Source: a virus
Length of the DNA stretch: 28,142 nt
IMG/VR virus record: IMGVR_UViG_3300024354_000060
Location: 1-28,142 of that record
Direction: 5' to 3' (one strand)
Shown here: positions 3 through 26,547 of the stretch, one piece after another
How positions within the stretch are numbered: the first letter of the stretch is position 1
Layout of the letters: every line of letters begins with the position of its first letter
Translations under genes and position numbers: made by a program
Notes under the pieces: generated by a model
Databases searched by the model: none
What the model saw: the letters and a program-made list of their open reading frames with translations, nothing else
Told to the model about the DNA's origin: nothing

Positions 3-386
3 CTAGTTGAAGACGATTATCATAAGTTGTGCGGTTGGTGGAAGGATTGGAGATGGCCAGTTATATCGAAAGATTTCTTGCCAGAAAACGGTACAGGAGG
101 ACTTATGATATCAAGCAATGGAGTAGATGTATGCGCTGGTTTCGTGTACATGACAAACTCAAAGGTAGCTTGGATAGAGTTTATAGTATCTAACTTCCAT
201 TATAGAGAGAAAGACAGAAAGGAAGCCATAGAGTTATTAATATATTCTTTGCTAGAGATTTGTAAACAAAAAGGTTTGCTTTATGCTTTTTCAAGTTTAA
301 AGAGTCCATCTTTAATAAAGATGTACGAAAATTGTGGCTTTCAAAAAGGATCTACAAACACAACTGAAATGATAAAAACATTATGA
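3..386 (+). CDS. GNAT-family acetyltransferase, 5'-truncated by window edge
   Basis: The frame is open back to the first complete codon at base 3, so the gene begins outside the window; TTG at 27 is only an internal codon. The visible 127 residues have the form of the short GNAT proteins common in podovirus-like genomes: an aromatic segment (WWKDWRWP) and DFLPENG near the visible N-terminus, a beta-strand rich middle, a helix (RKEAIELLIYSLLEICKQKG) where acetyl-CoA binding is expected, and a C-terminal YENCGF motif typical of the last GNAT strand-helix. Such genes often sit next to internal virion protein genes, as here. The substrate is unknown. The next gene starts 1 nt after the stop, so it belongs to the late operon. 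Confidence 0.8.
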   Translation, partial: LVEDDYHKLCGWWKDWRWPVISKDFLPENGTGGLMISSNGVDVCAGFVYMTNSKVAWIEFIVSNFHYREKDRKEAIELLIYSLLEICKQKGLLYAFSSLKSPSLIKMYENCGFQKGSTNTTEMIKTL

Positions 387-387
387 T

Positions 388-1152
388 ATGGCAGCAGTAA
401 CAGGGGCAATGATAGCATTAGGTGGATTGGGCGTAAGTGCGGCACAAGCTATAAAGCAAAATAAAGCTATGAAAGAAGCTGATTCGGTTTCTCAAAAAGC
501 AAGTAAATATATTAAAGGAATTACCGAGCAAAATGCATTTAAGCAGACTCAAGTGGCAACACTTGGAACTCAGTTAGCACAACAGTCTCAAGCTCAGAGA
601 GAGGCACAAACAATGAATATGCTGCAAGGTGCTGGTGCTGAGGGAGTAATTGGAGGTGTAGGTCAGTTAACTACTGCTAACAATCAGTCTGATTTACAAA
701 GAGCTGCTGAACTTGATCAAATGCAATATGAAAGAGATACGATGCAGGCACAGGCACAGCAAGGAATAAATGCAAGAAAACAAGAAAGAGAGTTTGAAGT
801 TGGAATGAGTGAAAAACAAGACGCTGAAATGAGAAGAGCTCAGGCAGAGGCCAATAGAAACGCAGCTATTGAAAATGCGGTTGGTTTTGCTGGAAGCGCA
901 ATAAGTTCATTAAGTAAAATGGCTCCATTATATGGAAAGAAAAATTTAGGTCAAGATGAATTAGGGAAAACGCAATGGACTCCAGAACAATTTGCTAAAT
1001 TTGGAAATATAGGAAAATCTGGAGGAGTAGGGATAGGTGAAACAACAGATTTAGATTTTGAAGCAATAGGAGGAATGTCTAATCAAAAATTTAAACAATT
1101 TATGAAAGGTCTTACTCCAGAACAAAGACAAATGTTATTTAATCAACAATAA
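388..1152 (+). CDS. Probable internal virion protein (T7 gp14-like position and composition)
   Basis: This 254-residue protein opens with a hydrophobic Ala/Gly-rich helix (about residues 3-22). A long Gln/Ala/Glu-rich helical stretch follows (about 40-160), then a second short apolar segment (about 163-184) and a hydrophilic tail. Small Ala/Gln-rich proteins with an N-terminal apolar helix, placed just before two larger proteins, are the usual look of the T7 gp14-type ejection protein, which helps form the channel for DNA entry. That role is inferred from composition and gene order; no catalytic motif is seen. It starts 1 nt after the GNAT stop, and its TAA is followed directly by the ATG of the next gene. 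Confidence 0.6.
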   Translation: MAAVTGAMIALGGLGVSAAQAIKQNKAMKEADSVSQKASKYIKGITEQNAFKQTQVATLGTQLAQQSQAQREAQTMNMLQGAGAEGVIGGVGQLTTANNQSDLQRAAELDQMQYERDTMQAQAQQGINARKQEREFEVGMSEKQDAEMRRAQAEANRNAAIENAVGFAGSAISSLSKMAPLYGKKNLGQDELGKTQWTPEQFAKFGNIGKSGGVGIGETTDLDFEAIGGMSNQKFKQFMKGLTPEQRQMLFNQQ

Positions 1153-2583
1153 ATGTCAACAACTAGAAATAATTATGGAACATATGTTCCAGTGGCTGCG
1201 GTTGACTGGGGCAAGGCAATCGGTGGTTTATACAATACAATAAATCAGATTGGAATTGATAGAGAAAAACAGCGTGAAGACTTAGACAAGTTAATGACTG
1301 AATCAATATCATCCATTAATAACTCTGATTTATTAAAAACACAAAGTTTACAGGACTATGTTTTGGCTGGAGCTGACAACGGAAGAACCACAATAAATAA
1401 CGCAAACAAACAACTAAAGTCTGGTCAAATAACTCCAGCTCAGTATAGGGCAATAATAAATAACGTGAACACGTATTGGTCAACGTTTTCCAATAGCATG
1501 AAGAATTTTGATGCGACCAATCAAGAATTAATGAAAAGACAGCAGCCTGGAGAAAATGGTTCACCATCAGATGGATCTGATTTTGAGGCTTATTTAGCTC
1601 AACAACACGCTAATCTAGGTAATTTAAGAAATTCATCTTATATGTTTAATCCAGAGACTGGAGAAGGTTATATGGTAAATATAGATCCAGCAACTGGTAA
1701 ACCAAGCAAGGTGACTAATAGTATGGTAATTGCTGATCCATCAAACATTATGGATCAAAGGTTTGACTTTAGAAAATTCATCATTACAAACACAAAAGGA
1801 ATGATGGACGCATATATAGTTGAACATGGTAGCACAACTACTAGTAACCCAATGGAAAATAAAGCTGTAGCAGCATCAGTAATTTCAACAATAAATTCTT
1901 GCCTTACAAACCCAAGGATGATATCTCAAGTATTGGCTGATTTTGGTAATTACGGATACTATCAAACAGAAGAAGAAAAACAAAATATAATTAACTCAAG
2001 GATTGCTGAAGAAAATCAAGTTAGAATTGCTCAAGGTAAACCAGAGTTAACTGATGAGGAAAAGAAAAACCTATCTGAAAATCTATCTTCAGAGCTTATT
2101 CTTGTTCGTTTAGATGATGACAATAAGTATCAACCAGTAATAACGCCAGATCAAGAACAGGACGCAAGAGATTTGCTTCAAGACTTTATAGTTGCTCAGT
2201 TCCCATATAAGCAAACCGAGGAAGATGGAGGATACAGATCTGGAAGAAAGGTAGGCGGACTAACTGAGGTAAAAGTAGATAATTCCACTCAAGATTTTGC
2301 TAATAAATTTGTAAAGGCAATGGGTTCTGGTAAGAAATCAGTAGAAAAAATGAACGAACTATTAAAAGCTAGGGGAATACAGGTACAATGGGATGGAAGT
2401 GGTTTTGATGTACTTAAATATAAAGATAAAGAAAGTGAAGATCAGTACGGACGTAAAATAAAAGGAGAATGGGAGAAAACTCAATACGTGAATTTACCAT
2501 GGAGTGCCGAAGATTTTTGGAAGGCTTTAGGTCTAAATGAATCAAAATGGATAGCCGCAGTTAAACGAGCAAAAGGTCAATAA
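1153..2583 (+). CDS. Probable internal virion / structural protein (gp15-like position)
   Basis: This is a 476-residue soluble, mostly helical protein without signal peptide or membrane segment. Its ATG abuts the preceding TAA and its own TAA is one base before the next ATG, so the three genes are probably translated as a unit. The N-terminal 130 residues are Asn/Gln-rich and helical (LKSGQITPAQYRAIINNVNT). The middle has a beta-like segment (MFNPETGEGYMVNIDPATG), then an acidic helical stretch (TDEEKKNLSENL). I recognise no domain. The position between a gp14-like protein and a giant gp16-like protein makes an ejected internal virion protein the best guess; other virion-associated roles are possible. 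Confidence 0.55.
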   Translation: MSTTRNNYGTYVPVAAVDWGKAIGGLYNTINQIGIDREKQREDLDKLMTESISSINNSDLLKTQSLQDYVLAGADNGRTTINNANKQLKSGQITPAQYRAIINNVNTYWSTFSNSMKNFDATNQELMKRQQPGENGSPSDGSDFEAYLAQQHANLGNLRNSSYMFNPETGEGYMVNIDPATGKPSKVTNSMVIADPSNIMDQRFDFRKFIITNTKGMMDAYIVEHGSTTTSNPMENKAVAASVISTINSCLTNPRMISQVLADFGNYGYYQTEEEKQNIINSRIAEENQVRIAQGKPELTDEEKKNLSENLSSELILVRLDDDNKYQPVITPDQEQDARDLLQDFIVAQFPYKQTEEDGGYRSGRKVGGLTEVKVDNSTQDFANKFVKAMGSGKKSVEKMNELLKARGIQVQWDGSGFDVLKYKDKESEDQYGRKIKGEWEKTQYVNLPWSAEDFWKALGLNESKWIAAVKRAKGQ

Positions 2584-2584
2584 A

Positions 2585-5500
2585 ATGGAAGAACTTTTCT
2601 CACAATCATCAGATAGATTGACAGATATGACTACCAATCCGCCAGAAGGTAAGCCTGACGGAATATATACCTATCCTGGTGTTGATGCCTCATATAAAAA
2701 AGAAAATGGAAAGTGGTATAAATCAATTGGAGTTAATGCTCCTTATGAAGAACTAACTCAAGGAAACGTTGCTGAAAGAATAAAGCAGTTGGAGTTAAAT
2801 GCTGTTTCAGTTGATTCAAAAAGACCAAACGGAATATATACTTACCCTGGTGTTGATGCATTATATAAAAAAGAAGACGGTATATGGTATAGAAAGACTG
2901 GTGATAAATACACTCAGTTATTTAGTGGTAATGTACCAGAAAGAATCAAGCAGTTAGAATTAAATTCCGTAAAAGTAGAAAAAGACGAAGAGCCATTAGG
3001 AGTTTACAGAAACAATCAAGACTTTGACGTAATACAGCCAGTAAGAAAGCTTGATGATAATTTTCAAAGACCATCAACCGAGTTATTTCCAGGAGTTAGA
3101 GATAAAGTAAATATAGAAAATGAATTTAAAATCCCAAATCTTAGATTAAATGAAAATGAACAAGGAATAAAGATATGGCAACAGTCAAAATCCGTAGACT
3201 TTAAACATCAACCAATTGACAAAAATACTGGAGAATTAACTGGACCATCTTACCATATTGTATATGAAGACATAACAGACCCTAAAAAAGTTTCAAAATT
3301 AAATTCTAAATACAATCAGGATGCGTCTACAATTAACACAGAAAAAGTGTTTACTGGTTATCCAGGTAAAGAGGGTACAGAGTATATAATTGATGATAAC
3401 AACCTTTGGAAAGTAAAGAGGCCAGGTTCTCAAGAATTCTTGACAATAACAGACCCAAACTCTGTAAAATCATTAAATAGTCATTTTAAACAAAGTGCTG
3501 ATGTATTTGATAATGATAAGGCCATCAAGTTAAAAAAAGAAAACGAAAAAATATTAGATCTTAGATACAGGATAAATAAAATAGATGAAAATCTAATAGG
3601 AGATAGCGAAGGAAATGTTGTAGAAAAATTAAGTGAATTGTTTCCAGAGTATGAGTTTTCTGAGGCTGGATGGGGAACCGACAATGTACTAGTAAAAAGT
3701 AAGTCTAATGAAATAATGATATCATTAGATAACTGGTATAGTGAAGATGATAATAATCAAGCTTTAGTATTAAGAAACTTTCTAAGAAATAATATAGGGG
3801 ATATTGATGAGAAAAGATACAAAGCCGTACTAAATCAAAGAATGCTTGATAGAGTAGAAAATAAATACCATAACACATTTGGATTATCTACTTTGGACAG
3901 GTATTTAGAAGCGACTAAATGGGAAGGTGTACCAATAGATATAAAACAAAAAACAGAAGAATCAAGAAAAGAATTTGCAATTGATCTAGGTTTACAATAT
4001 AAGGAAACAGTATTAAGAACAAAAGACTTAAATGAAAACGAAAAAAATGCAGCGCTAGCAAGTTTAAAACAAGACAAAGAATCAATATCAATAATAAATA
4101 AATATGCTGACGATGTAAAATCTGAATACAATATAGTATCGTCATATAAAAAAGATATAAATAATTCAATTATAGGTTTAGATAATAAATCAAAAGAAAT
4201 TGATTCAGATAAAAAAAATATAGAGCTATATATAAAAAACATACAAGAAAGAGTTAACAATAATCAGATAACTCAAGAAGAACTTGATAAAGCAAATTCA
4301 TACATAAAAGATCAGTACTCTAAATTAAATATAAAGATAGAACAATACAATAAAGAGTCTGATGATTTAAAATTAAACATAAAAAATTTAGATGAAAAAT
4401 CATTATCATTAAAAAATAATTTAAAAAATGTATCTCTATCTCAAGATGCAGTAAATAAGTCTATTGCCGCAAATTATTTAATAAAAGAACAGCAAGGAAC
4501 ATTTATTGGAGGACTAGGATATTCAGCTGTTGATGGTATACTTTCTATACCTAGGATGATTGCTCAGGCCGATAAACAAACCAAAGACGAGTGGATTCAA
4601 GCTATTGTTGGTGCAGGTACAACTGAGGAGTATATGAACTCAGATGATAGATGGGACCTTACAAAGGCTGCATTTCAAATGTCAAGGTCAATGTCAGCCA
4701 TGGCGGCTGGATGGGCACTTACAGGTGGGGGGACTTTGGCTCCTGCGGCAATAGGAGAATACTTATCTCTTTATGCTATGAGCTATTATGAGATGAAGGA
4801 TGAGCTTGATCAAATGGACATACCTGGTGTATCTGACAGAGACAAATTACTTATGTCTGGAGCTTATGGAATTGTAGGATCAGTTCTTGAAAGATTTGGG
4901 TTGAGCTATGCCCTCGGAAATAAAGTATTAAAAAGAAGTATATCCAATGAGGTTCTTAAGTTAGCGTTTAGTCAGATCCCAAAGAATGCTTCAAAAGAAA
5001 TGATTGAGGCACAGATAGGAAATAGTATTAAAACTTTAATAGGAAAGGGTGTTATAACTACACTTGGAACATCATTGGTTGAGGGTGGAGTTGAAGGTAG
5101 TCAAAGATTGGCTCAACTTGGAATTGAGGAGGCATACGATAGAATGAAAGGTACAGGTTATTTTAATAATCAGTCTGCTTATGAGATACTAGGAGATGTA
5201 GCTTACGAGTCTTATATGGGATTCTTAGGTGGTGGTATTGTAGAAACAATACAACAATCTGGAGACGTATTAAAAAATGGTACATCTGCATTTAAAAACG
5301 AGAAGCAAATACAACTACTAATAGAATCATCAAGAACACTTGGTATAGATGAAGCACTAGTATCCAAGCTAAAGTCAGACATGCTAAATGGCAAAATAAC
5401 AAAGCAAGAGGCCGAGGATATGCTTAACTCATTTAAAGAGATTAAGGGTAAGATTAATTCAATACCAAGTGATATGTCTATTGAAAATCAATCTAAGGCA

Positions 5501-8500
5501 TTAGACTTAATACTAGAAAGAGATAAACTCAACAAAGAAATAGAAGGGAAAGACCCTAACTTAGTTAAACCGCAGTCAGACAGGATAACTGAGATAAACA
5601 ATCGTCTGCAAGAATTATCAAAAGAAAATGCCGTACAAGAGCCAAGCACAGAGAGCGTACTTCCACGCCAACCAGAAACAACTGGAGAAACAGGGGGTGA
5701 ACGTGAAGGAATGGGACAAGGAGTCCAAGGGGAAGAAGTTGCCCAAGAAGGTGTCGAGCAAGCCCCAATCGAAAGCAAAGTCCAAGAAATAATTCCAGGT
5801 GAGAAGGCCACAGTTGCTGACGTAGACATCGTATATCCAACAGAGCCACAGGCAGAGGAAAGAAAGGCATTTAGATCTACCAGTGAGTACGTTGAGAACG
5901 TATCTAAAGAACTCCCTATTGAAGATGTAGAGACGTTGACAAAAGAACTTGACGGAGACTTCGGTTTGCTTACAGCTGAGAACCCAATGGCACAACCTCT
6001 TACCGAGGAAGAAAACAAACAACTAAACCAAAAGGCTGAGGAGTGGCTAAATAAAAAGGGATACAAGCCAAGACGTGTGACTGGAAAGTATGGACAGGCA
6101 GAGAACTCTTTCTTTGTGCCTAACCTAACAAGACAGGATGCTATTGAATTTGCTAAACAGTTTAACCAAGAGTCTGTAGCACACTCTGACGGATTGGTGT
6201 ACCAAGACGGATCAATGAATCCAAGGGTAAAGGCTAACGATAATTTAAGCTTTACTGAGAGCTATAACCCAGGCTCTGACTTTGTTTCTGTAGTGAACAC
6301 AAAGGATGGCCTAAAGACATTCTCTATTGGATACAACTTTGACGAGAAGGTAATGCCAGAGCAACAGGCTGCTACACAAATATCTGAGGTTACTATTACT
6401 CCAGAGACCAGCCAGACTGTTACTGAAAGAATTAATAAGGAGACTGACACAAAAAGAAAAAAAGTCTTTACAGCTGTTCAGAAGGTATTGTCTGCTATTC
6501 CTAATGCAAAAATAATTTTGCACGACAACACTGATGCATTTGTTGCTGGTGTTGCCAAGTCTGCTGGTATAACAAACGATGAGGCTATATCTCAAGGTGT
6601 TAATAACAACAGAGGGTCATACGTTAATGGTGATATACATATTAACTTAGAAACGGCTGGCGTGACCACCGTTTTCCACGAAGCATTCCACGACCTATTG
6701 GCTAAGAAGGGTATGGATAACAATGCATTGTTAGACATGGCTAAAGGTCTTAAATCAGTTATATCCGACAAAGCACTTAAGACAAGACTTGATAAATTTG
6801 TATCTAACTATGAGCAGGGAGAAAGAGCTGAGGAGTATACTACTGAGCTTGGAGCCATCATGGCTGAGGCTCAGAGAGAACTATCTACAACAAAGTTCCA
6901 GCAGTTTAAAACACTAGTCAATAAGATTGCCAAGAAGCTAGGTCTTCCTGTTGTCTTTTCTGCTGCATCAACTGCACAGGACGCTGTTGACTTTATGAAC
7001 TCAATGTCTGGTAAGCTTGGAAGAGGTGAGCAGATTGAGGTTGGTAATGTATCTAAAGTTATTCCATCTGAAACAGATAAATATGGTAACTTAAAAAAAC
7101 CTTCAGAATCATCAATAAAAAACATTAAAAATCAAAAACCAAAAATAGTAAATGATGCAAAGTCAAATGTAAAAGAGGGTAAAACTGTAAGCACTAGACT
7201 TCCTAAAAAAGATAATATACATTCTACTAGAGACTACATAGTAAGTATGAAATCTCTAGAAGAAGATGCGTCTAAGGATAAAAAAATACAGGATCAATAT
7301 ATAAAAATAGCAAAAGAAATATCTTCATACGGTATATCAAAAATAAAAAATGTAGAAAATTTTGATGATGCTAAAAAAGTAGTAAATGATTTTAAAAATT
7401 CTGTAAAGTCTAACTTAAAATGGTTACATAACTCATTTGGTGTTGATGTAAGAGACATATCAAAGTTATGGTATGATGGAGCAAATATTATTTGTAATAA
7501 AATAGCAAATCAATATAATTATTCCTTAGAACAAGTATCTGGAGTAATGGCTGTACTTAGTCCTCAAATGGATTGGTTTAGAAATTTATCATTAGGCGAA
7601 AGAGTAATAGATATTTATACTAATCAACAGAATTCTATTTTTGATTCTAAAATGATAGATTATGTAAATAATGCTACGTCTGGTACTGGTAAAAATAAAG
7701 TACCATTATTTAAAGATTCTAAAGAAATAATTTCAAGAGTAAAGAATAAAAAATTATCAGAATTAAACAATAAAGACAAAGCATATTTTATCAGAGTATT
7801 TGATGAGGTATATAATTCGAGAGAATATAATAACATATCTCCTAATGGAGAAGTAAATGGATTAGTTAGAAAATCTGATGGATCTCCTGGAGCTTGTGGA
7901 TGGGGAGCATTTCCTACAATAGAAAAATCAATATCAATACTTCAAGATGGATCTATTGAAAATATATCTTCTAATCTTGGTAATATGCATAAGGTTAGAA
8001 ATTTCTTTAACAATATATCTAATCCAAATGATCCAGATGCAGTTACTATAGATACTCACGCAGTTGCTGCTGGATTACTTCTACCATTAAGCGGAAGCTC
8101 AAAGCAAGTGCTATATAATTTTGGTGGTGCAGGAAATGTAAATACTGGAATGACTGGAACATATCCAGTATATGCGGATGCTTATAGAGAACTAGCAAAA
8201 GAACTTGGATTGCTTCCAAGAGAAGTTCAAAGTATAACTTGGGAAGCTGTGAGAGGTTTATTTAAAGCTACATTTAAGTCAAACAAAAATAACGAGTTAA
8301 ATATAAATAAAGTATGGGATGATTATAGTTCTGGATCTATATCTTTAGATGAAGCTCATACTAAAATAGAAGATATTGCTGGAGGAATAAGTAAACCAGT
8401 TTGGTTTGAATATATGGCTGATGGAAATAAAATATCAATGGATGAAAATTCAGCAGCTGTAGATCAATCTAATCTTGATAATGAATCCATAGAACCATCA

Positions 8501-11500
8501 AAAATCAAGGCCCAGAAAGTACTTCCAGAAAGTGTAGAGAAAAGACTTACTGAAGATGGAAATGGTAACTACGTGTTCCATCACTACTCAAGTTCAAAGA
8601 GAGACTCAATAAAACCAACTACTGGTGATGGTAGCTTTATGGTTTCTAAGGAAGAGGCATCTGCACTAGCTAGTGTAAATGGTGTTGCACAGTACTACGC
8701 AATGGCTGATCAAAAAGAACAGGGCACTGGTAACGTTCAGCATACCGTACTTGTTCCTATGAATGAGGTATACTACTTACAAGAAGACAAGTTAAACCTA
8801 TACGATAAGGCAAAAGAAGAGTTCCAAAAGGCTAGACCAGGACAGGCGTTTAGTCCTAACTATCAAGCTGCATGGATTGGAAAGGTAGCCAATGATATGG
8901 GTTATAAGATGCTTGTTAGCGAGTGGAGAAATGGAGAACTTAGAGCTCAAACAACACTAGAGTTAAAACCAGAGTCTAATAATATAGAGATGAAACCTAG
9001 AGAAAAGGTGACGTTTAATGTTGGTGACAAGGTAAATGTATTTGGTGACGATGCTGTTGTGACAGAAGTTAACGGTGATATCGTATCCTACAAGGGAGAC
9101 AGATCATCAGGATCTATTAATGTAGTTCGAAGCAAGCAGTCAATTAAAAAGATAACATCTGCTAGGTTTCAGAAACAATCCAAAGAAGACGCTATACAAG
9201 ACGCCAAGGATATACACGAAAAGTCGTTCAAAAGATTTAAAGATAGTAAGAGAGCTATAGCGAACGCTGTAAATAATCTTGAGAAGTCAAAGTGGTACAG
9301 AGATGCTGACGATATACAGAGAGAAGAGGCCGTAAGAGAAATCAAAAATTTCTTTGGAGAAAAAATAAAGTCCGCCCCATCTGTTGCTAAGGTTACTGGT
9401 AAAACAAAACAAACAGCATTTGTGTCCGACCTTGCTGCCGCAATTCGTGACCAGATCAAGCTACAGGCACGATCATCTAGAGAGACGGCTAAGAACATTA
9501 ACGACAGACGTAAGGCACTTGGTACAGCAATAAAAGAGGTAGTTAGCAAATACAAAGGAAAGATCACAGAGAGACAGCTAAAGTCTATAAATACAAGGAT
9601 TGCAAATGTTAATCTATTTAACCAAGAAATGGTTGAGAGAGTAATAGACTACGTGAACAAGGTGATGAACAATGCCGAGTATGCTACTAAAGTAAACAAC
9701 GCATTTGCAGAGAGACGTGCCATTAGACGAATGATGAAGTCTGGAAACATGGCAGAGACTGTCGCTGTTGCTAAGGAATTCACTCAGATTGATCCGTCAA
9801 TGGTTGATGACATAGATGCGTACCTAGAGATGGCCCAAAAAATAAGAGGGGCCGTAAAGTCATCAAGACGTGTAGGAGAAACCGTATCATTAAAGCAGAT
9901 TGTGAACTTTGGTGAGGCATACGAGTACATTAAACCTGTACTTGATGCACAAGAAGAGTCCATGAAGAACATGCTATTGGCGGAGCACAACGATCTTGTT
10001 GAGTCTGGAGTAATATCTAAGGATATGACCTTAAAAGATATCAATAAAATACTTAATAAGATAAGGCTTGATGAAAAGGTAGATTCAAACGAAGAAGAAT
10101 CTGCAAGAGAATTTCTTAAAAATAAATTGTATTTATTAAAATTGCAATTAGGTTCATACATTGAAAACAAAGGTTACAACCCACTTACTGGTGAGGTTAT
10201 GGATATTAGTGACCGCAACAAGCAGATGATTGCAAAGGTTGTTAAGTCAGACATGAACAACATGTCTACCAAACAAATGACCGAAATGGTTGACTCTCTG
10301 TATAACTTTTTAGAGAACGGAGCAGTAGGAGGTATAGAGGCGGCATACAATACTTATGTTGGCGAAAAAAATGCCGCATCTCTTGAAAAACAAGTCGTGG
10401 TTGCAAGGCCATTAAAAATGTACTTCAATAAAAAACTTGGACAAGTATCTGCTTATGAAGTAACATCACTAACTGAGTTGTTCAATAGAATGTTTGTTGG
10501 AGTTACAAAAGGTATAGACGTAATGACAGATTCTGGACTTGCTGATGTTATATTAGGTGCAAACAAAGCAAGAAGACAAGTAAAAGAAATACAAGACAAC
10601 TACGTTAAAAAGTTTGGAAAAATTAAAAACTTTTTTCAAATTGAAAATGTATACGAAAGAGGAGCGCTTGCATTTTTAACTAGAAACTTAATAGGAAGCG
10701 ACATAGAAGTAAAGTCAGAATTTAATAGACGTGTAGATATATTATTACAAAGTATTGATGCGCTAAGAAATGGAACCGAAAGAGAACAAAAAATGGCTGA
10801 TGTCTATGAAAAAGTATTAGGAAAACTAGACGTAAATTCAAGGGATCTTAATACAATTAAAAGTAAAGCATCAAGCACAAATATTGAAGCTGTAGAATGG
10901 TGGATAAATGAGTGGTCAACACACTACTCTGATTTATCTGACGTGTCTAAGTCTGTTTATAATACAATACTAGGAAAGGATGTAAACTATACTCCAGATA
11001 GACTTAAAACAACATCAGAAGGTTCTAGTCAGACAATAAATGATAAAATACTAGAAAGTAAATCAGCATTTTTAATGAATACTGATGCTATAACAGACAC
11101 AAACGAGTCTGGTGTAATGATAGCTTCTGTTAGACCTAAACAATTGCCAAAAGGAAGATACGTAAGCCTAGATTTTGATGTAAATAATATAGAATCACTT
11201 ACAGGTGCATTGGTCGATATAAATACAGCTGGAGCCATAAGACAGGTATCATCATTTTTTAAATCAAAATCATTTAAATCAATTGTTCCCTCAGTGGAAG
11301 ATAGGACAATGTTAAATGAAAGAGTAAATAAATATATAAGAAGAGCAAAGAATAAATTATCTGTTCCTAGCGATGTATTTAGAAATATTGACAACGCACT
11401 AAATACCATATCATCAGTAGGTACAGCGTTAGGCCTAGGTGGTGTATTTCAGTCAGTTAAACAGACAGTTTCTGTTGCTATGAGTACAGCAATACAGACA

Positions 11501-13072
11501 GGTAATAGTTTTAATATATATGCTGGTAAAGACTTTAATAACTGGTTAAATACAACTGGCGCAACTGTGACTAATAGAGGTCAAGAATCACTTACAGCAA
11601 TTGAGAGTGCAAACAAAAAATTGCAATCATTTAATGGTAAATTTGATCAAGCACTTACAGAAATTAAAAAATGGAGTCAATGGCAACTTAGATTGTTTTT
11701 ATCTAAGCCAGATGTTTTTGTGGCAAGGGCTGCATTTAAATCTTACTATGAACAATATTTGAAACAAAATGGATATGATGTGTCAAAAATAAATTGGGAC
11801 ACATGGAACGATACAATTAAAAAAGAAGGTATAGAAGAACTAAACAAAAAAGCTATTATTTATGCAGATACAATGGTGTCAAGGCAACAAAACGTATCTG
11901 ACGAAAGATTAGCTGGAGAATTACTTGCAAATGAAGATTCAGCCAGAAAGTTAATAAGAAAGGTAGTGTTTCCTTTTGCATCGTTTAGTATTAACCAAAG
12001 AGCTAGACTTGTTGCAGACATAAATGCATTATTTTTAAACTGGAATAATATATCTAAAGAAGATAAAGCAATAGCTATTAAATCAATAGCTGGTACTGTT
12101 GCAGAACAGGCTGTATTTCAGTCAATAAACTTTACAATTGGAATGTCAATATATTCTATAGCACAGTCTTTAGCTGGTCACGATGATGATGATGATGAAT
12201 GGGAAAAAAGAATTCTTAATGCGACAAAATATCCTCTAAGATCTTTGTTTGCAGACTTTGTTTCTCCAAATCCATTATCAGATGATGCTGTAATATTTGG
12301 AGCTGATCAATTATTAGCGATGATGGATGCTCCAAGTGATGGGGAAATAAAACAAGCGATAGAGGATGAACAAGAACTTAGAATAGCTACAGGTAAACAG
12401 CTAATGACTGAATCGCAAATAAATAAGTTTAAAGAAGAATATATAAAAGAAAATACTTATCAGCTTTCATATAATTTTTCTAATCATGAAGAAGGTAAAT
12501 ATGGTCTATTTTCTATAACAATTGATCAATACAAAAGATTGTCTGAAAATTTTGAAATGGCTAAAAATGGAACATTTACCGATGAATACATGGGTAAGGA
12601 GACAACGAAGTACTTAACCGATAAAGATAAGTCACTAGCAATGTGGGTATTCTATGGTCTAGAGGTTCCATATTCTACTGGGGCTGGATTAAAAGAAATG
12701 GGTCAAGTGGCTAATAAAACTTACTCAATAATAAAGAAAAGAGCGCTAACGGAAGATCAGTATGAGGTCTATAAAGAATTTAAAAAAGAATTTAAAAGAG
12801 AACCTCAAGAATGGGAAATAAATATGATTAAGTCATCAAAAAGTCCTAAATATTCTTTTGGAGCTATGAGATATGTTCAAGATTTTGGAGGATTAAGTAA
12901 TCAACAAGGAAAGGAATACGCAAAAGTATTTGAGAAAACTGGAATGGTGTTGCCTCCAGCTGTATTTGATATGATCAAGCAAGGCAAATCATCAGACAAA
13001 GCATTTCAAAAGTACAAGCAAGAAATGAAAAAGGAATTAAATACTGATGTAAGCGATAGAGTTTTTAATTAA
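2585..13072 (+). CDS. Giant polyvalent/internal virion protein, 3495 aa, with zincin and ART-like domains
   Basis: A single uninterrupted frame of 3495 codons. Domains in order: two ~57-residue repeats (about 23-130; motif GIYTYPGVD...W...L...ERIKQLELN) and a diverged third (about 256-303); a Lys/Asn-rich coiled coil (about 483-630); a Gly-rich apolar block (about 638-896); an acidic Pro/Gln linker (about 1015-1070); a zincin motif HEAFHD at 1365-1370 with acidic residues near 1416-1422 as possible third ligand; an AT-rich-coded alpha-helical domain with SPQMDWFRNLSLGER, GACGWGAFP, DTHAVAAG and ITWEAVRGLF (about 1543-1950); an ART-like domain (about 1997-2129); an SH3/KOW-like segment (about 2139-2189); long helices; and a C-terminal part (2620-3495) with apolar stretches and a GHDDDDDEWE motif near 3198-3206. 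This matches the polyvalent proteins described by Iyer, Aravind and colleagues. By gene order it replaces T7 gp16, so co-ejection with DNA is likely. Both functions are inferred. Confidence 0.8.
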   Translation: MEELFSQSSDRLTDMTTNPPEGKPDGIYTYPGVDASYKKENGKWYKSIGVNAPYEELTQGNVAERIKQLELNAVSVDSKRPNGIYTYPGVDALYKKEDGIWYRKTGDKYTQLFSGNVPERIKQLELNSVKVEKDEEPLGVYRNNQDFDVIQPVRKLDDNFQRPSTELFPGVRDKVNIENEFKIPNLRLNENEQGIKIWQQSKSVDFKHQPIDKNTGELTGPSYHIVYEDITDPKKVSKLNSKYNQDASTINTEKVFTGYPGKEGTEYIIDDNNLWKVKRPGSQEFLTITDPNSVKSLNSHFKQSADVFDNDKAIKLKKENEKILDLRYRINKIDENLIGDSEGNVVEKLSELFPEYEFSEAGWGTDNVLVKSKSNEIMISLDNWYSEDDNNQALVLRNFLRNNIGDIDEKRYKAVLNQRMLDRVENKYHNTFGLSTLDRYLEATKWEGVPIDIKQKTEESRKEFAIDLGLQYKETVLRTKDLNENEKNAALASLKQDKESISIINKYADDVKSEYNIVSSYKKDINNSIIGLDNKSKEIDSDKKNIELYIKNIQERVNNNQITQEELDKANSYIKDQYSKLNIKIEQYNKESDDLKLNIKNLDEKSLSLKNNLKNVSLSQDAVNKSIAANYLIKEQQGTFIGGLGYSAVDGILSIPRMIAQADKQTKDEWIQAIVGAGTTEEYMNSDDRWDLTKAAFQMSRSMSAMAAGWALTGGGTLAPAAIGEYLSLYAMSYYEMKDELDQMDIPGVSDRDKLLMSGAYGIVGSVLERFGLSYALGNKVLKRSISNEVLKLAFSQIPKNASKEMIEAQIGNSIKTLIGKGVITTLGTSLVEGGVEGSQRLAQLGIEEAYDRMKGTGYFNNQSAYEILGDVAYESYMGFLGGGIVETIQQSGDVLKNGTSAFKNEKQIQLLIESSRTLGIDEALVSKLKSDMLNGKITKQEAEDMLNSFKEIKGKINSIPSDMSIENQSKALDLILERDKLNKEIEGKDPNLVKPQSDRITEINNRLQELSKENAVQEPSTESVLPRQPETTGETGGEREGMGQGVQGEEVAQEGVEQAPIESKVQEIIPGEKATVADVDIVYPTEPQAEERKAFRSTSEYVENVSKELPIEDVETLTKELDGDFGLLTAENPMAQPLTEEENKQLNQKAEEWLNKKGYKPRRVTGKYGQAENSFFVPNLTRQDAIEFAKQFNQESVAHSDGLVYQDGSMNPRVKANDNLSFTESYNPGSDFVSVVNTKDGLKTFSIGYNFDEKVMPEQQAATQISEVTITPETSQTVTERINKETDTKRKKVFTAVQKVLSAIPNAKIILHDNTDAFVAGVAKSAGITNDEAISQGVNNNRGSYVNGDIHINLETAGVTTVFHEAFHDLLAKKGMDNNALLDMAKGLKSVISDKALKTRLDKFVSNYEQGERAEEYTTELGAIMAEAQRELSTTKFQQFKTLVNKIAKKLGLPVVFSAASTAQDAVDFMNSMSGKLGRGEQIEVGNVSKVIPSETDKYGNLKKPSESSIKNIKNQKPKIVNDAKSNVKEGKTVSTRLPKKDNIHSTRDYIVSMKSLEEDASKDKKIQDQYIKIAKEISSYGISKIKNVENFDDAKKVVNDFKNSVKSNLKWLHNSFGVDVRDISKLWYDGANIICNKIANQYNYSLEQVSGVMAVLSPQMDWFRNLSLGERVIDIYTNQQNSIFDSKMIDYVNNATSGTGKNKVPLFKDSKEIISRVKNKKLSELNNKDKAYFIRVFDEVYNSREYNNISPNGEVNGLVRKSDGSPGACGWGAFPTIEKSISILQDGSIENISSNLGNMHKVRNFFNNISNPNDPDAVTIDTHAVAAGLLLPLSGSSKQVLYNFGGAGNVNTGMTGTYPVYADAYRELAKELGLLPREVQSITWEAVRGLFKATFKSNKNNELNINKVWDDYSSGSISLDEAHTKIEDIAGGISKPVWFEYMADGNKISMDENSAAVDQSNLDNESIEPSKIKAQKVLPESVEKRLTEDGNGNYVFHHYSSSKRDSIKPTTGDGSFMVSKEEASALASVNGVAQYYAMADQKEQGTGNVQHTVLVPMNEVYYLQEDKLNLYDKAKEEFQKARPGQAFSPNYQAAWIGKVANDMGYKMLVSEWRNGELRAQTTLELKPESNNIEMKPREKVTFNVGDKVNVFGDDAVVTEVNGDIVSYKGDRSSGSINVVRSKQSIKKITSARFQKQSKEDAIQDAKDIHEKSFKRFKDSKRAIANAVNNLEKSKWYRDADDIQREEAVREIKNFFGEKIKSAPSVAKVTGKTKQTAFVSDLAAAIRDQIKLQARSSRETAKNINDRRKALGTAIKEVVSKYKGKITERQLKSINTRIANVNLFNQEMVERVIDYVNKVMNNAEYATKVNNAFAERRAIRRMMKSGNMAETVAVAKEFTQIDPSMVDDIDAYLEMAQKIRGAVKSSRRVGETVSLKQIVNFGEAYEYIKPVLDAQEESMKNMLLAEHNDLVESGVISKDMTLKDINKILNKIRLDEKVDSNEEESAREFLKNKLYLLKLQLGSYIENKGYNPLTGEVMDISDRNKQMIAKVVKSDMNNMSTKQMTEMVDSLYNFLENGAVGGIEAAYNTYVGEKNAASLEKQVVVARPLKMYFNKKLGQVSAYEVTSLTELFNRMFVGVTKGIDVMTDSGLADVILGANKARRQVKEIQDNYVKKFGKIKNFFQIENVYERGALAFLTRNLIGSDIEVKSEFNRRVDILLQSIDALRNGTEREQKMADVYEKVLGKLDVNSRDLNTIKSKASSTNIEAVEWWINEWSTHYSDLSDVSKSVYNTILGKDVNYTPDRLKTTSEGSSQTINDKILESKSAFLMNTDAITDTNESGVMIASVRPKQLPKGRYVSLDFDVNNIESLTGALVDINTAGAIRQVSSFFKSKSFKSIVPSVEDRTMLNERVNKYIRRAKNKLSVPSDVFRNIDNALNTISSVGTALGLGGVFQSVKQTVSVAMSTAIQTGNSFNIYAGKDFNNWLNTTGATVTNRGQESLTAIESANKKLQSFNGKFDQALTEIKKWSQWQLRLFLSKPDVFVARAAFKSYYEQYLKQNGYDVSKINWDTWNDTIKKEGIEELNKKAIIYADTMVSRQQNVSDERLAGELLANEDSARKLIRKVVFPFASFSINQRARLVADINALFLNWNNISKEDKAIAIKSIAGTVAEQAVFQSINFTIGMSIYSIAQSLAGHDDDDDEWEKRILNATKYPLRSLFADFVSPNPLSDDAVIFGADQLLAMMDAPSDGEIKQAIEDEQELRIATGKQLMTESQINKFKEEYIKENTYQLSYNFSNHEEGKYGLFSITIDQYKRLSENFEMAKNGTFTDEYMGKETTKYLTDKDKSLAMWVFYGLEVPYSTGAGLKEMGQVANKTYSIIKKRALTEDQYEVYKEFKKEFKREPQEWEINMIKSSKSPKYSFGAMRYVQDFGGLSNQQGKEYAKVFEKTGMVLPPAVFDMIKQGKSSDKAFQKYKQEMKKELNTDVSDRVFN
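2645..3495 (+). repeat. Three-copy YPG protein repeat within the giant protein
   Basis: Copies lie at residues ~23-74, ~79-130 and ~256-303 of the 3495-aa protein. The first two are close relatives at a 57-residue spacing (both carry GIYTYPGVDA, YKKE, W, an L, then ERIKQLELN). The third keeps only the skeleton: YPG, an aromatic/acidic strand, N-x-W-K, a hydrophobic strand, and V-x-x-LN. It looks like a small beta-beta-beta-helix unit. I do not recognise the family; a binding module displayed at the protein's N-terminus is a reasonable guess. Confidence 0.55.
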
Positions 13073-16942: not shown

Positions 16943-19297
16943 TTAAAAATTTAATTCAGTTTGATCTTTTAATCTAATAAATTCAACAATCTTACCATGT
17001 GCGTTTCTAAATATCTTTGGCTTTTCTCCAAACTTATATTCACCAAACGAATCTAGCCATCGGTAAAACCTATTGTGAGACAACTTAAATCTTCCGTAAG
17101 TACTATAGTCTGGATATTCTTCAGTAAACTTGTTGTACATCGTCTGACCTGGGTTTGGGTTATTTATCTTGACATAGTCATTGTCCACTGATGTTGCCCA
17201 CTCCCAAAATTCTGCCGATGTCTCAGCAATAAACTTGCGTGTCTTTAAGTTCATAAAGTCACAACGTATAAGCCCTTGAGAAAGATATAGCTGTAGGTTT
17301 GATATCATGTAGTTATCAAATCTCGACCACTCATCGCTGTCCCATCCAACAAACAACATGTGACCAAACTCAGTCTCTGGAGTAAACATCTTTGAGTAGT
17401 ACTGCTTAAACTCTAGGTCCCACTTTCTTCTCTCAAAGCTATTACCTGCGCCCTTGATAGCGTAGTTTGTTGTGATGACAATCTTTGGAGAGTTCTCAAA
17501 TGGTATGTGTATCTCGTCTTTGTTTTTCTTCTCAAGAGTTATACCCTCGGTAATAACTGAGAATAAACGCTCAAAATCAAAGTTTTTGCTTACGTCATCA
17601 AATACCAGTGTTTGAGTATCTACCTGTACACGTTGATAAGGGAATGACTTCTGGAAACTAAATCCTTTTCCGTCAATAATTACCATCTTTTTGATGAACG
17701 AAATCGACTTAACAAAGATCCCTTTCCCTGTACCACCTTCAGGATTATCGCTAATAACCTCGTCATTAAGTATGACAGCAGGGCAGTAGCTAGCAGGCTT
17801 ATAACTATGCAAAAGATAGCCAATCGTTGACTCCATAGAATTAATTCGGCCCGAATTGTTGCCAGAAATGTTTTTAACAAATCTCTTATATTCACAATCA
17901 TCTGTTTTTAATTTATTGAATTCTCTATTTATTTTTTGTTTTTCCCACACATAACCACCCAAGTCCTTATAGTCAATCATTTTAACGTCACACTTTGTGA
18001 CCTTTACAGCGCAGTTACTATAATAAAGGTATGCTTCGTCAATAGTGTCAACCATGAAGTTAGGATCAATCTTTGCAACATAGTTTAAGAATGTCTCTTG
18101 AAAGAACTTAGTGTTGATGGCAAAGAAGTTATACACCGACATATCATTGATTCCCATTAGATAGTCCAACACAAAGTCTTTTATCATGTCTTCGTTTGTG
18201 TCACTAATAATGTTATCAATGATTCTAACAAAAACAAAATTATTCGATCCGTTTGGGTAGTACTTATAGAATCCATTTCCTTTTAGATAGTCTCTAAATA
18301 GATGAGGTATAAGGTCAATCTTACCCTTGCTACTCTTTGACCAAAACGTGTTATACTCCTGTGTCTCAACCATCTCGTTGATTATGTTCTCGTCAATGTC
18401 AATAAAGTTCTCCTTTATCTCATTAACTGGTACACCCCTAAGGATGTCGTTCTTTATGTTGGTCGTCTTGTCTACATCCTCGTAAAACTTAGTTGCGTGA
18501 TCTTGAATGTTCTTGTATGCCGACCAAACAATGGTCTTAATCTCAGAGGCCATGTCACCATCGTCATAATGCATTAGGACTTCAAGTGCTTCATCCTTAG
18601 ATATTCCGTACTGATTGAGTGCTGATGCAAAGATGAACAGGTTATTGTTTCGTTGTCCCTTAACCATGCCATAGCTTTTGTTCCACCACAACGACAATCT
18701 CCTAACAACCTCGTTAGAGTCATTGATAATTATCTTTGGTCTTGGCTTAACAAAGTCATCGCTATTGTCCATCTCAATCCAAGTGTCAGACAGCTCATTG
18801 ATATATATGTCTGGATCATAGCTCTCGTAACACACACGAGATATGTTCTTGCACGACTTGTCAAACTCATCGCAGTTGTAGTACTTTTGCAATGCCACAA
18901 AGTACTTCTTGTGGTTTGACGCATCTTTAGGTATTCTAACAAGAACCTTTAGCCCATCACCAGATGGTGACGTAAACACAGAGTACGAGTACTTGTCGTT
19001 GCACAGGTCTTGTCTCATCTGATACAACGCCTGATCATCCTTAAACCCATCAAAGTCTATACATATCAGTCCGCTGTGCTCGATGATAGCGTTGTCAGCA
19101 CGTCTAGAGAACTGACCAGAAAATAAAATTGAAGGAAGACCTTTCTTTAGGTTGTTACGTTGCTCCTTGTCATCGGCAGAACGTATCATCTCAACTAGGT
19201 CCTTTGATACACCATCTCTAATTCTATCTAATGCAACTAGTACGTCTACGTGATAAGGCTTGTCAGTTTCATTGATTGATTTAAAGTAGGTTATCAT
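16943..19297 (-). CDS. Primase-helicase: BT4734/VirE-type N-terminus plus D5-like SF3 helicase
   Basis: 784 residues when started at the ATG of 19297, which shares ATGA with the upstream stop; the open frame extends to 19366, but the family normally begins MITYFKSI..., so I chose the internal start. N-terminal motifs are DFD at 81-83, SPSGDG at 110-115 and SRVCYESYDPDIYIN at about 153-167, as in BT4734/VirE_N primase-like proteins of Bacteroidetes. The C-terminal half carries Walker A GGTGKG (about 519-526), Walker B LVFDD (about 563-567) and a sensor strand ITTN (about 607), as in D5-like phage/plasmid helicases. It should prime and unwind at the phage replication fork. No DNA polymerase gene is seen in the window. 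Confidence 0.9.
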   Translation of the reverse strand: MITYFKSINETDKPYHVDVLVALDRIRDGVSKDLVEMIRSADDKEQRNNLKKGLPSILFSGQFSRRADNAIIEHSGLICIDFDGFKDDQALYQMRQDLCNDKYSYSVFTSPSGDGLKVLVRIPKDASNHKKYFVALQKYYNCDEFDKSCKNISRVCYESYDPDIYINELSDTWIEMDNSDDFVKPRPKIIINDSNEVVRRLSLWWNKSYGMVKGQRNNNLFIFASALNQYGISKDEALEVLMHYDDGDMASEIKTIVWSAYKNIQDHATKFYEDVDKTTNIKNDILRGVPVNEIKENFIDIDENIINEMVETQEYNTFWSKSSKGKIDLIPHLFRDYLKGNGFYKYYPNGSNNFVFVRIIDNIISDTNEDMIKDFVLDYLMGINDMSVYNFFAINTKFFQETFLNYVAKIDPNFMVDTIDEAYLYYSNCAVKVTKCDVKMIDYKDLGGYVWEKQKINREFNKLKTDDCEYKRFVKNISGNNSGRINSMESTIGYLLHSYKPASYCPAVILNDEVISDNPEGGTGKGIFVKSISFIKKMVIIDGKGFSFQKSFPYQRVQVDTQTLVFDDVSKNFDFERLFSVITEGITLEKKNKDEIHIPFENSPKIVITTNYAIKGAGNSFERRKWDLEFKQYYSKMFTPETEFGHMLFVGWDSDEWSRFDNYMISNLQLYLSQGLIRCDFMNLKTRKFIAETSAEFWEWATSVDNDYVKINNPNPGQTMYNKFTEEYPDYSTYGRFKLSHNRFYRWLDSFGEYKFGEKPKIFRNAHGKIVEFIRLKDQTELNF

Positions 19298-19509
19298 AGC
19301 ATTGATTTTAATTTTTCTAAATAAATTGTTGCGTCCATTAATTCTTCCTGTAGGTGTGTTATCCACTCCTCAGTAGACAGGTCTTTCCTGTCCATTGTCG
19401 TGTTATACTTCTTGATTCCTACGGCTGATCTGTGCCGCATTTTAGAGACAACAGCCTCTACTACACTGTCAACCTTGATGTCGGCAGTGGATGTTGATTC
19501 CCATTGCAT
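19294..19509 (-). CDS. MazG-like nucleotide pyrophosphohydrolase-type small protein
   Basis: 71 residues with the pattern RHRSAVGIKKYNTTMDRKDL...W..HLQEELMDATIYLEKL. The EELMDA motif (55-60), after a W-x-x-H helix, resembles the metal-binding EExxD of short phage MazG-like (dATP/dGTP diphosphohydrolase-type) proteins. Such enzymes trim the nucleotide pool or lower alarmone levels during infection. At 71 aa it is shorter than full MazG domains (~100 aa), so the second helix pair may be missing and activity is uncertain. Its TGA overlaps the primase ATG by ATGA coupling. A probable terminator lies just upstream, so a new transcript may begin here. Confidence 0.7.
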   Translation of the reverse strand: MQWESTSTADIKVDSVVEAVVSKMRHRSAVGIKKYNTTMDRKDLSTEEWITHLQEELMDATIYLEKLKSML

Positions 19510-19956: not shown

Positions 19957-19990
19957 AATTATTTTTTTTTACAAATTTACTACTTTTCAG

Positions 19991-20064
<74 letters not shown>

Positions 20065-25763: not shown

Positions 25764-25927
25764 AGCGGTTTTAAATTTAATCTTATTAATATCTCTTGAA
25801 CGGCTAACCATTGTGCCGTTACACGTTGTACGTAATCGTCATCTGAGCCAAACGTATCGGTTACCTCTTCTTTCCAATCTCGCATCTCTTTCTCGTATGC
25901 TAGAATGATTCTTGTTGTTTCTTCCAT
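25760..25927 (-). CDS. Small acidic protein, 55 aa, overlapping the terC-like gene end
   Basis: The ATG at 25927 opens a 55-codon frame ending in TGA at 25760 that overlaps the SH3-like ATG as ATGA. The product is MEETTRIILAYEKEMRDWKE, then EVTDTFGSDDDYVQRVTAQW and LAVQEILIRLNLKPL: two amphipathic helices around an acidic turn. The start lies 28 nt inside the 3' end of the TerC-like gene. Its fit between two genes and its regular helical sequence support it. No family is recognised. Confidence 0.6.
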   Translation of the reverse strand: MEETTRIILAYEKEMRDWKEEVTDTFGSDDDYVQRVTAQWLAVQEILIRLNLKPL

Positions 25928-26547
25928 CTTGATTTAATTAATAGTGGTACAATAAACATGACTAGTGTAGCTACTGAGAATGCCATGTCTACATGCTCAG
26001 TGTTTAATACAGGCAGGAAGTATGATAGTGCTAACTTCGTGCCTAGCATTCCGATTACAGCGTATGCAGTCTTCTCCATCAACGGATTGCTGTTGATTAC
26101 GCTGATGAATGTTGTCGTTGCAAATCTGATGGCTAGTATGCCAATGAATACGCCCATGATGATGACCAACATGCTGTCAGTAAATGATACCGATGCCAAG
26201 ATGTTGTCTATAGAGAATACCAAGTCCATCATCTCGATCGATAGTACGGTCAGCCAAAATGATCGTGAGTTTATCTTGTGCTCCTGTTCTTCTGAACCTT
26301 TGAAACTTTTGAAGCACAGGTACATGAGGTATAGTCCACCCAAGACCTTGAGCCATGACATGTTGATTAGTACGGATGCAATCAATAGAGCTAGCCCTCT
26401 GAATACGTATGCACCGATTATGCCGTAGGTTAAAGCTTTCTTCTGCTGTTCCTTCGGTAGTGTGTTGACCATGGTAGCCATGACGGCTGCATTGTCTATG
26501 CTCAAGATTATCTCAAGCAGTACGATGTTTAAGATTATTAGTATCAT
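25900..26547 (-). CDS. TerC-family integral membrane protein
   Basis: 215 residues with about seven apolar segments. It carries the two family signatures: LLEIILSIDNAAV (10-22, with SIDN at 16-19) and EMMDLVFSIDNI (105-116, with SIDN at 112-115), whose Asp residues lie in the membrane. At 215 aa it is close to the short YceF/YkoY-type members rather than the longer TerC/Alx proteins. Family members are linked to manganese export and tellurite resistance, and some assist metal loading of exported proteins. It starts 2 nt after the 74-aa gene stop (TAACCATG). A complete host-type transporter in a phage accessory array is unusual. Confidence 0.9.
   Translation of the reverse strand: MILIILNIVLLEIILSIDNAAVMATMVNTLPKEQQKKALTYGIIGAYVFRGLALLIASVLINMSWLKVLGGLYLMYLCFKSFKGSEEQEHKINSRSFWLTVLSIEMMDLVFSIDNILASVSFTDSMLVIIMGVFIGILAIRFATTTFISVINSNPLMEKTAYAVIGMLGTKLALSYFLPVLNTEHVDMAFSVATLVMFIVPLLIKSRWKKQQESF

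Follow-up and report, generated by a model that had tools for sequence, protein, structure and literature searches.

What does a virus do with a single protein of 3,495 residues, and does such a protein stand in for the T7-gp16-type ejection protein, as a preliminary description of this DNA proposed? The window, by which we mean all of the 28,142 bases analysed here, a fragment taken from an IMG/VR virus record, holds one ATG-started frame that stays open for more than 10 kb, as first described (Table 1). Single frames of comparable size occur in related contigs (3,506 aa in L005, 3,275 in L013, 3,257 in L004, 3,083 in L024 and 3,000 in L022), so the great length is conserved and no product of chance.

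The giant gene and its surroundings

In the window, as in G004, a 62-kb relative with the same gene order, the giant gene is the last of a structural block, which in G004 includes terminase, portal, head and other virion genes; replication genes lie downstream on the opposite strand. The upstream order given in the preliminary description, which spoke of gp14-like and gp15-like genes, holds, with a gene matching PHROG 13764 followed by a 476-aa gene, but the two names describe position only. The window virus is a Bacteroidetes-type podovirus and the giant gene closes its virion module. A tape measure was considered and rejected, as G004 combines terminase, portal and head genes with no sheath or tube family seen, and Elemovirus, to which the nearest cultured relatives belong, is named as a podovirus.

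Table 1. Features of the giant gene and of the two genes preceding it (nucleotide positions in the window; aa, residues of the giant protein)
Feature	Position	Strand	Basis or details
Virion structural gene, 254 aa, at T7 gp14 position	388..1152	+	PHROG 13764, E 5.7e-9; homolog, same order, in G004
476-aa gene at T7 gp15 position	1153..2583	+	41% identical homolog, same order, in G004
Giant polyvalent-type putative virion protein	2585..13072	+	single ATG-started frame, 3,495 aa
Two ~50-aa N-terminal repeats, aa 26-72 and 83-128	2660..2968	+	visible in sequence; both match one stretch of L022
Conserved N-core, aa 623-1030, Gly/Ala-rich	4451..5674	+	alignment; precedes cargo in every relative complete there
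Cargo 1, DUF3293 / S-adenosylmethionine (SAM) lyase-like domain, aa 1121-1265	5945..6379	+	PF11697 and PF23780 matches; E1173, Q1195
Cargo 2, zincin-type metallopeptidase-like domain, aa 1271-1490	6395..7054	+	HEAFH at nt 6677-6691, aa 1365-1369
Cargo 3, DUF7178 domain with HhH-GPD glycosylase fold, aa 1550-1965	7232..8479	+	Pfam 2.4e-23; fold search; K1803, D1823
Linker motif KIKAQK, cargo 3/4 border	8501..8518	+	sequence
Cargo 4, candidate ART-like domain and small beta-rich tail, aa 1976-2190	8510..9154	+	homologs in Elemovirus and other contigs
Linker motif ARFQK, cargo 4/C-core border	9161..9175	+	sequence
Conserved helical C-core, aa 2200-3484	9182..13036	+	signature FPFASFSINQR ... GHDDDDDEW; alignment, model, fold searches

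Several other genes in and around this block deserve mention in their own right. The frame cut at the window start (3-386, plus strand) looks like the end of an acetyltransferase-like (GNAT) gene. On the minus strand, 16943-19366 encodes an 807-aa primase-helicase-like protein, the N-terminal part of which resembles a CRISPR-associated primase-polymerase type B model (8.5e-16, below the model cut-off); a tRNA-Arg (TCT) gene at 19990-20064 lies in a stretch 88-97% identical to relatives; and 25900-26547 encodes a TerC/YkoY-family membrane protein (NCBIfam TIGR03716, 3.8e-63, above cut-off), likely a metal-homeostasis gene of host origin. Rfam's threshold is reached by no riboswitch in the window. 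In G004 (contig L028, 2970-3602) a ferredoxin-family gene (PHROG 3704, 5.8e-62) is situated in the head module, between the portal and a head gene.

Two cores and the cargo between them

Alignments of 13 and 17 relatives define the two cores, and every relative complete enough to show both has the order N-core, cargo, C-core. No named sequence family matched either core, and PDB sequence profiles gave no credible match to the C-core, the N-core or the DUF7178 domain. The N-terminal repeats of the preliminary description are readily found, whereas its apolar block holds in part: residues 601-800 are less polar, but they contain no ordinary transmembrane helix, since no 19-residue window reaches a mean Kyte-Doolittle value of 1.4. 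Between the cores lie 1,170 residues of exchangeable cargo, and unrelated biochemical types (DUF3293/SAM lyase, a zincin motif and DUF7178 with a glycosylase fold) are thus brought together in one frame.

The first cargo domain is absent from the preliminary description. Scanned by itself, the segment aa 1067-1265 matches DUF3293 (PF11697) at E 1.5e-13 to 3.5e-13 and the SAM lyase family PF23780 at 30.1-31 bits against a cut-off of 28 (E 5.1e-7), the latter match not being recovered when the whole record is searched; all six homologs match both families at E < 1. The stretches 'GKYGQAENSFFV' and 'FNQESV' put E1173 and Q1195 at the positions of the catalytic Glu and the B-loop Gln, and both residues are invariant in two homolog alignments, including a Myxococcus phage homolog. 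In SAM lyases this Glu (Glu69 in Svi3-3, Glu68 in T3) is essential, and the B-loop Gln is common to SAM-AMP lyase (PMC7877911, PMC12255297). When aligned by hhalign to five T3-type SAMases, E1173 and Q1195 stand opposite T3 E68 and Q94, in an alignment whose overall score is not significant (E 0.08). Cargo 1 has a Pfam family match and the catalytic Glu and Gln in common with the known SAM lyases of phages (T3 SAMase, Svi3-3) and with SAM-AMP lyases. The latter two groups are produced after infection as small proteins of their own, whereas cargo 1 is a domain in a probable virion protein. The predicted model is of low confidence in the DUF3293 part, where its PDB matches are NTase-like and not PII-like, and these matches were set aside for that reason; phmmer matches of the segment to designed SAKe proteins were likewise rejected as summed weak repeats.

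The zincin motif that had been noticed in the second cargo domain is kept, its HExxH being present in all relatives possessing the domain, together with a conserved downstream Glu/acidic helix. The model of this domain has a weak fold match to a gluzincin, and the peptidases of polyvalent proteins were assigned to the same superfamily (PMC5512222).

What had been called a distinct helical domain proves to be DUF7178, a family that no paper found in our literature search names. Most of its model has a pLDDT of 80-94, and its best PDB fold match is the 8-oxoguanine glycosylase/lyase 3knt (Z 9.2 over 183 residues, rmsd 3.8); rows 2-6 for this region are DUF2419 (the second-best) or AGOG, all glycosylase-type, and the rows that follow are unrelated and fall on other regions. 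Two residues of 'GNMHKVRNFFNNISNPNDPDAVTIDTHA', K1803 and D1823, which are 20 positions apart, do not vary among seven diverse sequences, being kept in Bacteroidetes-type phages, Roseobacter phage CRP-738, phage zth2-2 and gp86 of mycobacteriophage Pocahontas, a protein named a glycosylase by its authors; by motif, we take the two residues to be the catalytic Lys (of the lyases) and Asp of HhH-GPD proteins. As the HhH-GPD, AGOG and Ogg-HhH profiles (PF00730, PF22175, PF09171) match neither the window nor DUF7178, the domain is a fold-level relative outside those Pfam families. In the phage proteins of PHROG 3842 the domain is identical in kind, with K and D conserved, but these are stand-alone actinophage genes, and here it is cargo of a giant protein. 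The unrelated phage CRP-738 carries it in an 835-aa protein encoded two genes past the portal, which is an independent link of DUF7178 to virion genes.

Less can be said for the fourth domain, whose homologs in L037 and L038 occupy other places in the domain order. It finds no match in Pfam up to E 10 and its model has low pLDDT, so that the earlier ART-like label is not borne out, though an ART-like domain it may be; as for the SH3-like segment, a run of short strands is indeed predicted, but at a pLDDT of about 33. Motifs of the KIKAQK/ARFQK type often occur at cassette borders (in the window, L003, L005, L034, L040, L004, L007, L012, L018 and L031), and may represent a recombination seam, a cleavage site or a mere linker. 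Since [KR][FAM]Q[KR] is found twice in the window against 0.57 expected, its reading as a cleavage site is a lead only.

Recent exchange of cargo cassettes

In spite of the conserved order of cores and cargo, the architecture put forward in the preliminary description is not a fixed one: several enzyme-like domains are joined in one frame, but which ones differs in nearly every relative, and this mosaicism was not on its list. About ten cargo combinations occur among the relatives, including ddrB-ParB (PF18763, above cut-off), which occupies the same slot in L019, L021 and L023. The window and L005 share about 77% identity in their common replication genes, and in the cores identity is 64-74% or undetectable, versus 94% over nt 5784-8518; within this stretch, nucleotide identity rises to 99-100% over aa ~1489-1960 against 42-95% in the flanks. 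In terms of dS, the glycosylase-like cassette stands at 0.007, the adjoining SAM-lyase/zincin part at 0.465 and the C-core at 1.81. L034 is 97-100% identical to the window across cargo 3 and 4 (aa ~1472-2172), and L010 is 90-97% identical in cargo 4 only. L003 and L005, in turn, are 97.9% identical over 10.9 kb, with L003 having two unrelated domains instead of cargo 3. The limits of the exchanged stretches coincide with domain borders. Phages whose cores are old and diverged have thus exchanged cassettes very recently, and as dN/dS is 0.10-0.34 in all parts, all parts of the giant protein are kept under selection.

One could argue that such a pattern was created by metagenome assembly, given that every contig with the cores is metagenomic and that the frame of L010 is broken. 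We consider this very improbable, because the same cassette is found with different flanks in separate metagenomes (L005, L034, L040), the limits match domain borders, the frames are open, and cassettes of intermediate divergence are under purifying selection. The break in L010 itself is a small deletion (10200-10249), which splits the giant frame and leaves the C-core in another frame; it may be a real split or an error of sequencing or assembly.

Relation to known proteins and possible function

The preliminary description's view of the gene as a replacement for gp16 has two sides. A very large multidomain protein with enzyme-like domains does lie at the gp16 position, but homology to gp16 is another matter. 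The predicted C-core model (mean pLDDT 69) resembles gp16-type PDB chains of PhiM1 (8vb2, Z 5.4), E1004 (9vvp, Z 5.4) and T7 (9jyy, Z 4.6), all Z scores below the fold tool's own caution level for helical proteins. The three chains align to one part of the C-core, aa ~2612-3105, via the same part of gp16, and a BFVD search with the model returned one 'Internal virion protein D' (E 1.2e-3). Together with the identical genomic position, this likeness would suit a true but divergent homolog of T7 gp16 (internal virion protein D), its transglycosylase swapped for other enzymes, and in the predicted model it is suggestive of a common fold. Against such a homolog, hhalign with six gp16 sequences gives a probability of 0.4% for the C-core and, in the comparison with gp16, 0.5% for the N-core; blastp of the giant protein finds no significant gp16 match; and Pfam, PHROG and NCBIfam show no transglycosylase domain in it. 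The sequence comparisons are thus negative for descent from T7 gp16, and true homology seems to us unlikely. The giant protein is 2.7 times as long as T7 gp16. Because the fold similarity lies below a reliable level and the sequence profiles are negative, we write 'at the gp16 position' and not 'a gp16'.

In BFVD, Foldseek also matches the C-core model to pieces from the C-termini of phage polyvalent proteins (with E as low as 3e-7 among those that are named) and to an Elemovirus structural protein (2.6e-8). The polyvalent-type C-terminus proposed earlier therefore stands at the level of predicted fold, but HMMER finds no LPD family in the C-core. We class the giant protein as polyvalent-type, lying where T7 has gp16. 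With the C-core, tblastn gave no match among named phages, and no host is deduced from it, since no bacterial genomes with C-core relatives were found.

The class of polyvalent proteins, and their domain mosaicism in Helicobacter phages, have already been described (Iyer et al. 2017, PMC5512222). Like them, the giant protein is very large and joins several unrelated enzyme domains, a zincin included, and the fold of its C-core is like that of their C-termini; ddrB-ParB, a described polyvalent domain, occurs in its relatives, and from the described repertoire the window itself has only the zincin motif. It differs from them in its SAM-lyase-like and HhH-GPD-like cargo, which lies outside that repertoire as far as searched: the words 'glycosylase' and 'adenosylmethionine' are absent from the text of PMC5512222, and our literature search found no paper in which polyvalent proteins are discussed as carrying a SAM lyase or a DNA glycosylase. 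Within the literature searched, this cargo and the nucleotide-level evidence of very recent cassette exchange look new, the class itself being known.

We consider it fairly likely that the giant protein is the largest internal virion (ejection) protein of this phage, with conserved cores that deliver and an exchangeable enzyme cargo that reaches the host with the DNA. It is probably packaged in the particle and injected. The course of events that we infer, from packaging and ejection to cleavage and to each enzymatic activity and its target, would be as follows. The protein would be expressed late, built into the head core and ejected through the tail with the genome, the two helical cores probably serving the structural side of packaging and of delivering the DNA. 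Its own zincin might cut it at the inter-domain linkers, and the freed domains would immediately act on SAM or signals derived from it, as well as on bases or nucleosides, possibly blunting SAM-dependent defences (restriction-modification, BREX, type III CRISPR SAM-AMP signalling) ahead of phage gene expression. A more pointed version, tentative and rather doubtful as a whole, is that the particle carries a SAM lyase (or SAM-AMP lyase) and a DNA-glycosylase-type enzyme as interchangeable domains of one injected protein, freed by a built-in protease at repeated linkers and disarming SAM-dependent defences at DNA entry.

The same domains could have nothing to do with counter-defence, which is a serious possibility, though somewhat short of an even one. 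DUF3293 would then be a PII-like sensor or binding domain and DUF7178 a nucleoside hydrolase or base-modifying enzyme, active in metabolism or in modification of phage DNA. DUF3293, a family of unknown function, is indeed the stronger match compared to SAM lyase, and DUF2419, second among the fold matches of DUF7178, is a queuosine salvage enzyme; yet the residues that serve catalysis in SAM lyases and in HhH-GPD lyases are conserved, and both domains are carried on a protein with polyvalent features. It is quite improbable, on the other hand, that the giant protein is structural and stays in the particle or envelope, with its enzyme domains serving assembly or the cell surface and not the cytoplasm. 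A relative is recorded only under a structural label, and zincins are able to process virion proteins, but SAM, nucleosides and DNA are cytoplasmic substrates, if the cargo families are right, and the rapid swapping is easier to reconcile with targets in a conflict with the host than with assembly.

If the counter-defence reading is true, such a phage would enter with a ready-made defence of its own, its virion-borne SAM lyase acting before restriction or BREX can, unlike T3 SAMase, which is protective only once synthesized. It also yields testable functional predictions for two families of unknown function, DUF3293 and DUF7178. As cassettes are swapped naturally on a fixed delivery frame in otherwise 97.9%-identical phages, the effect of each cassette on host range or defence should be directly readable.

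Cultured relatives for such tests exist in Elemovirus on Flavobacterium BAL314. These Flavobacterium podophages have a 3,667-aa gene (MT497114, QMP89010), labelled 'structural protein; DUF3293' by its depositors, the product of which has the same gene position as the giant protein and shares with it the DUF3293 domain (78%) and a zincin and fourth domain (43-44%); it differs in having no HhH-GPD domain and a C-core that is weakly similar (hhalign E 4e-4, probability 34%). Close to the structural block, Elemovirus (L045) also has genes for chaperonin GroEL and for cpn10.
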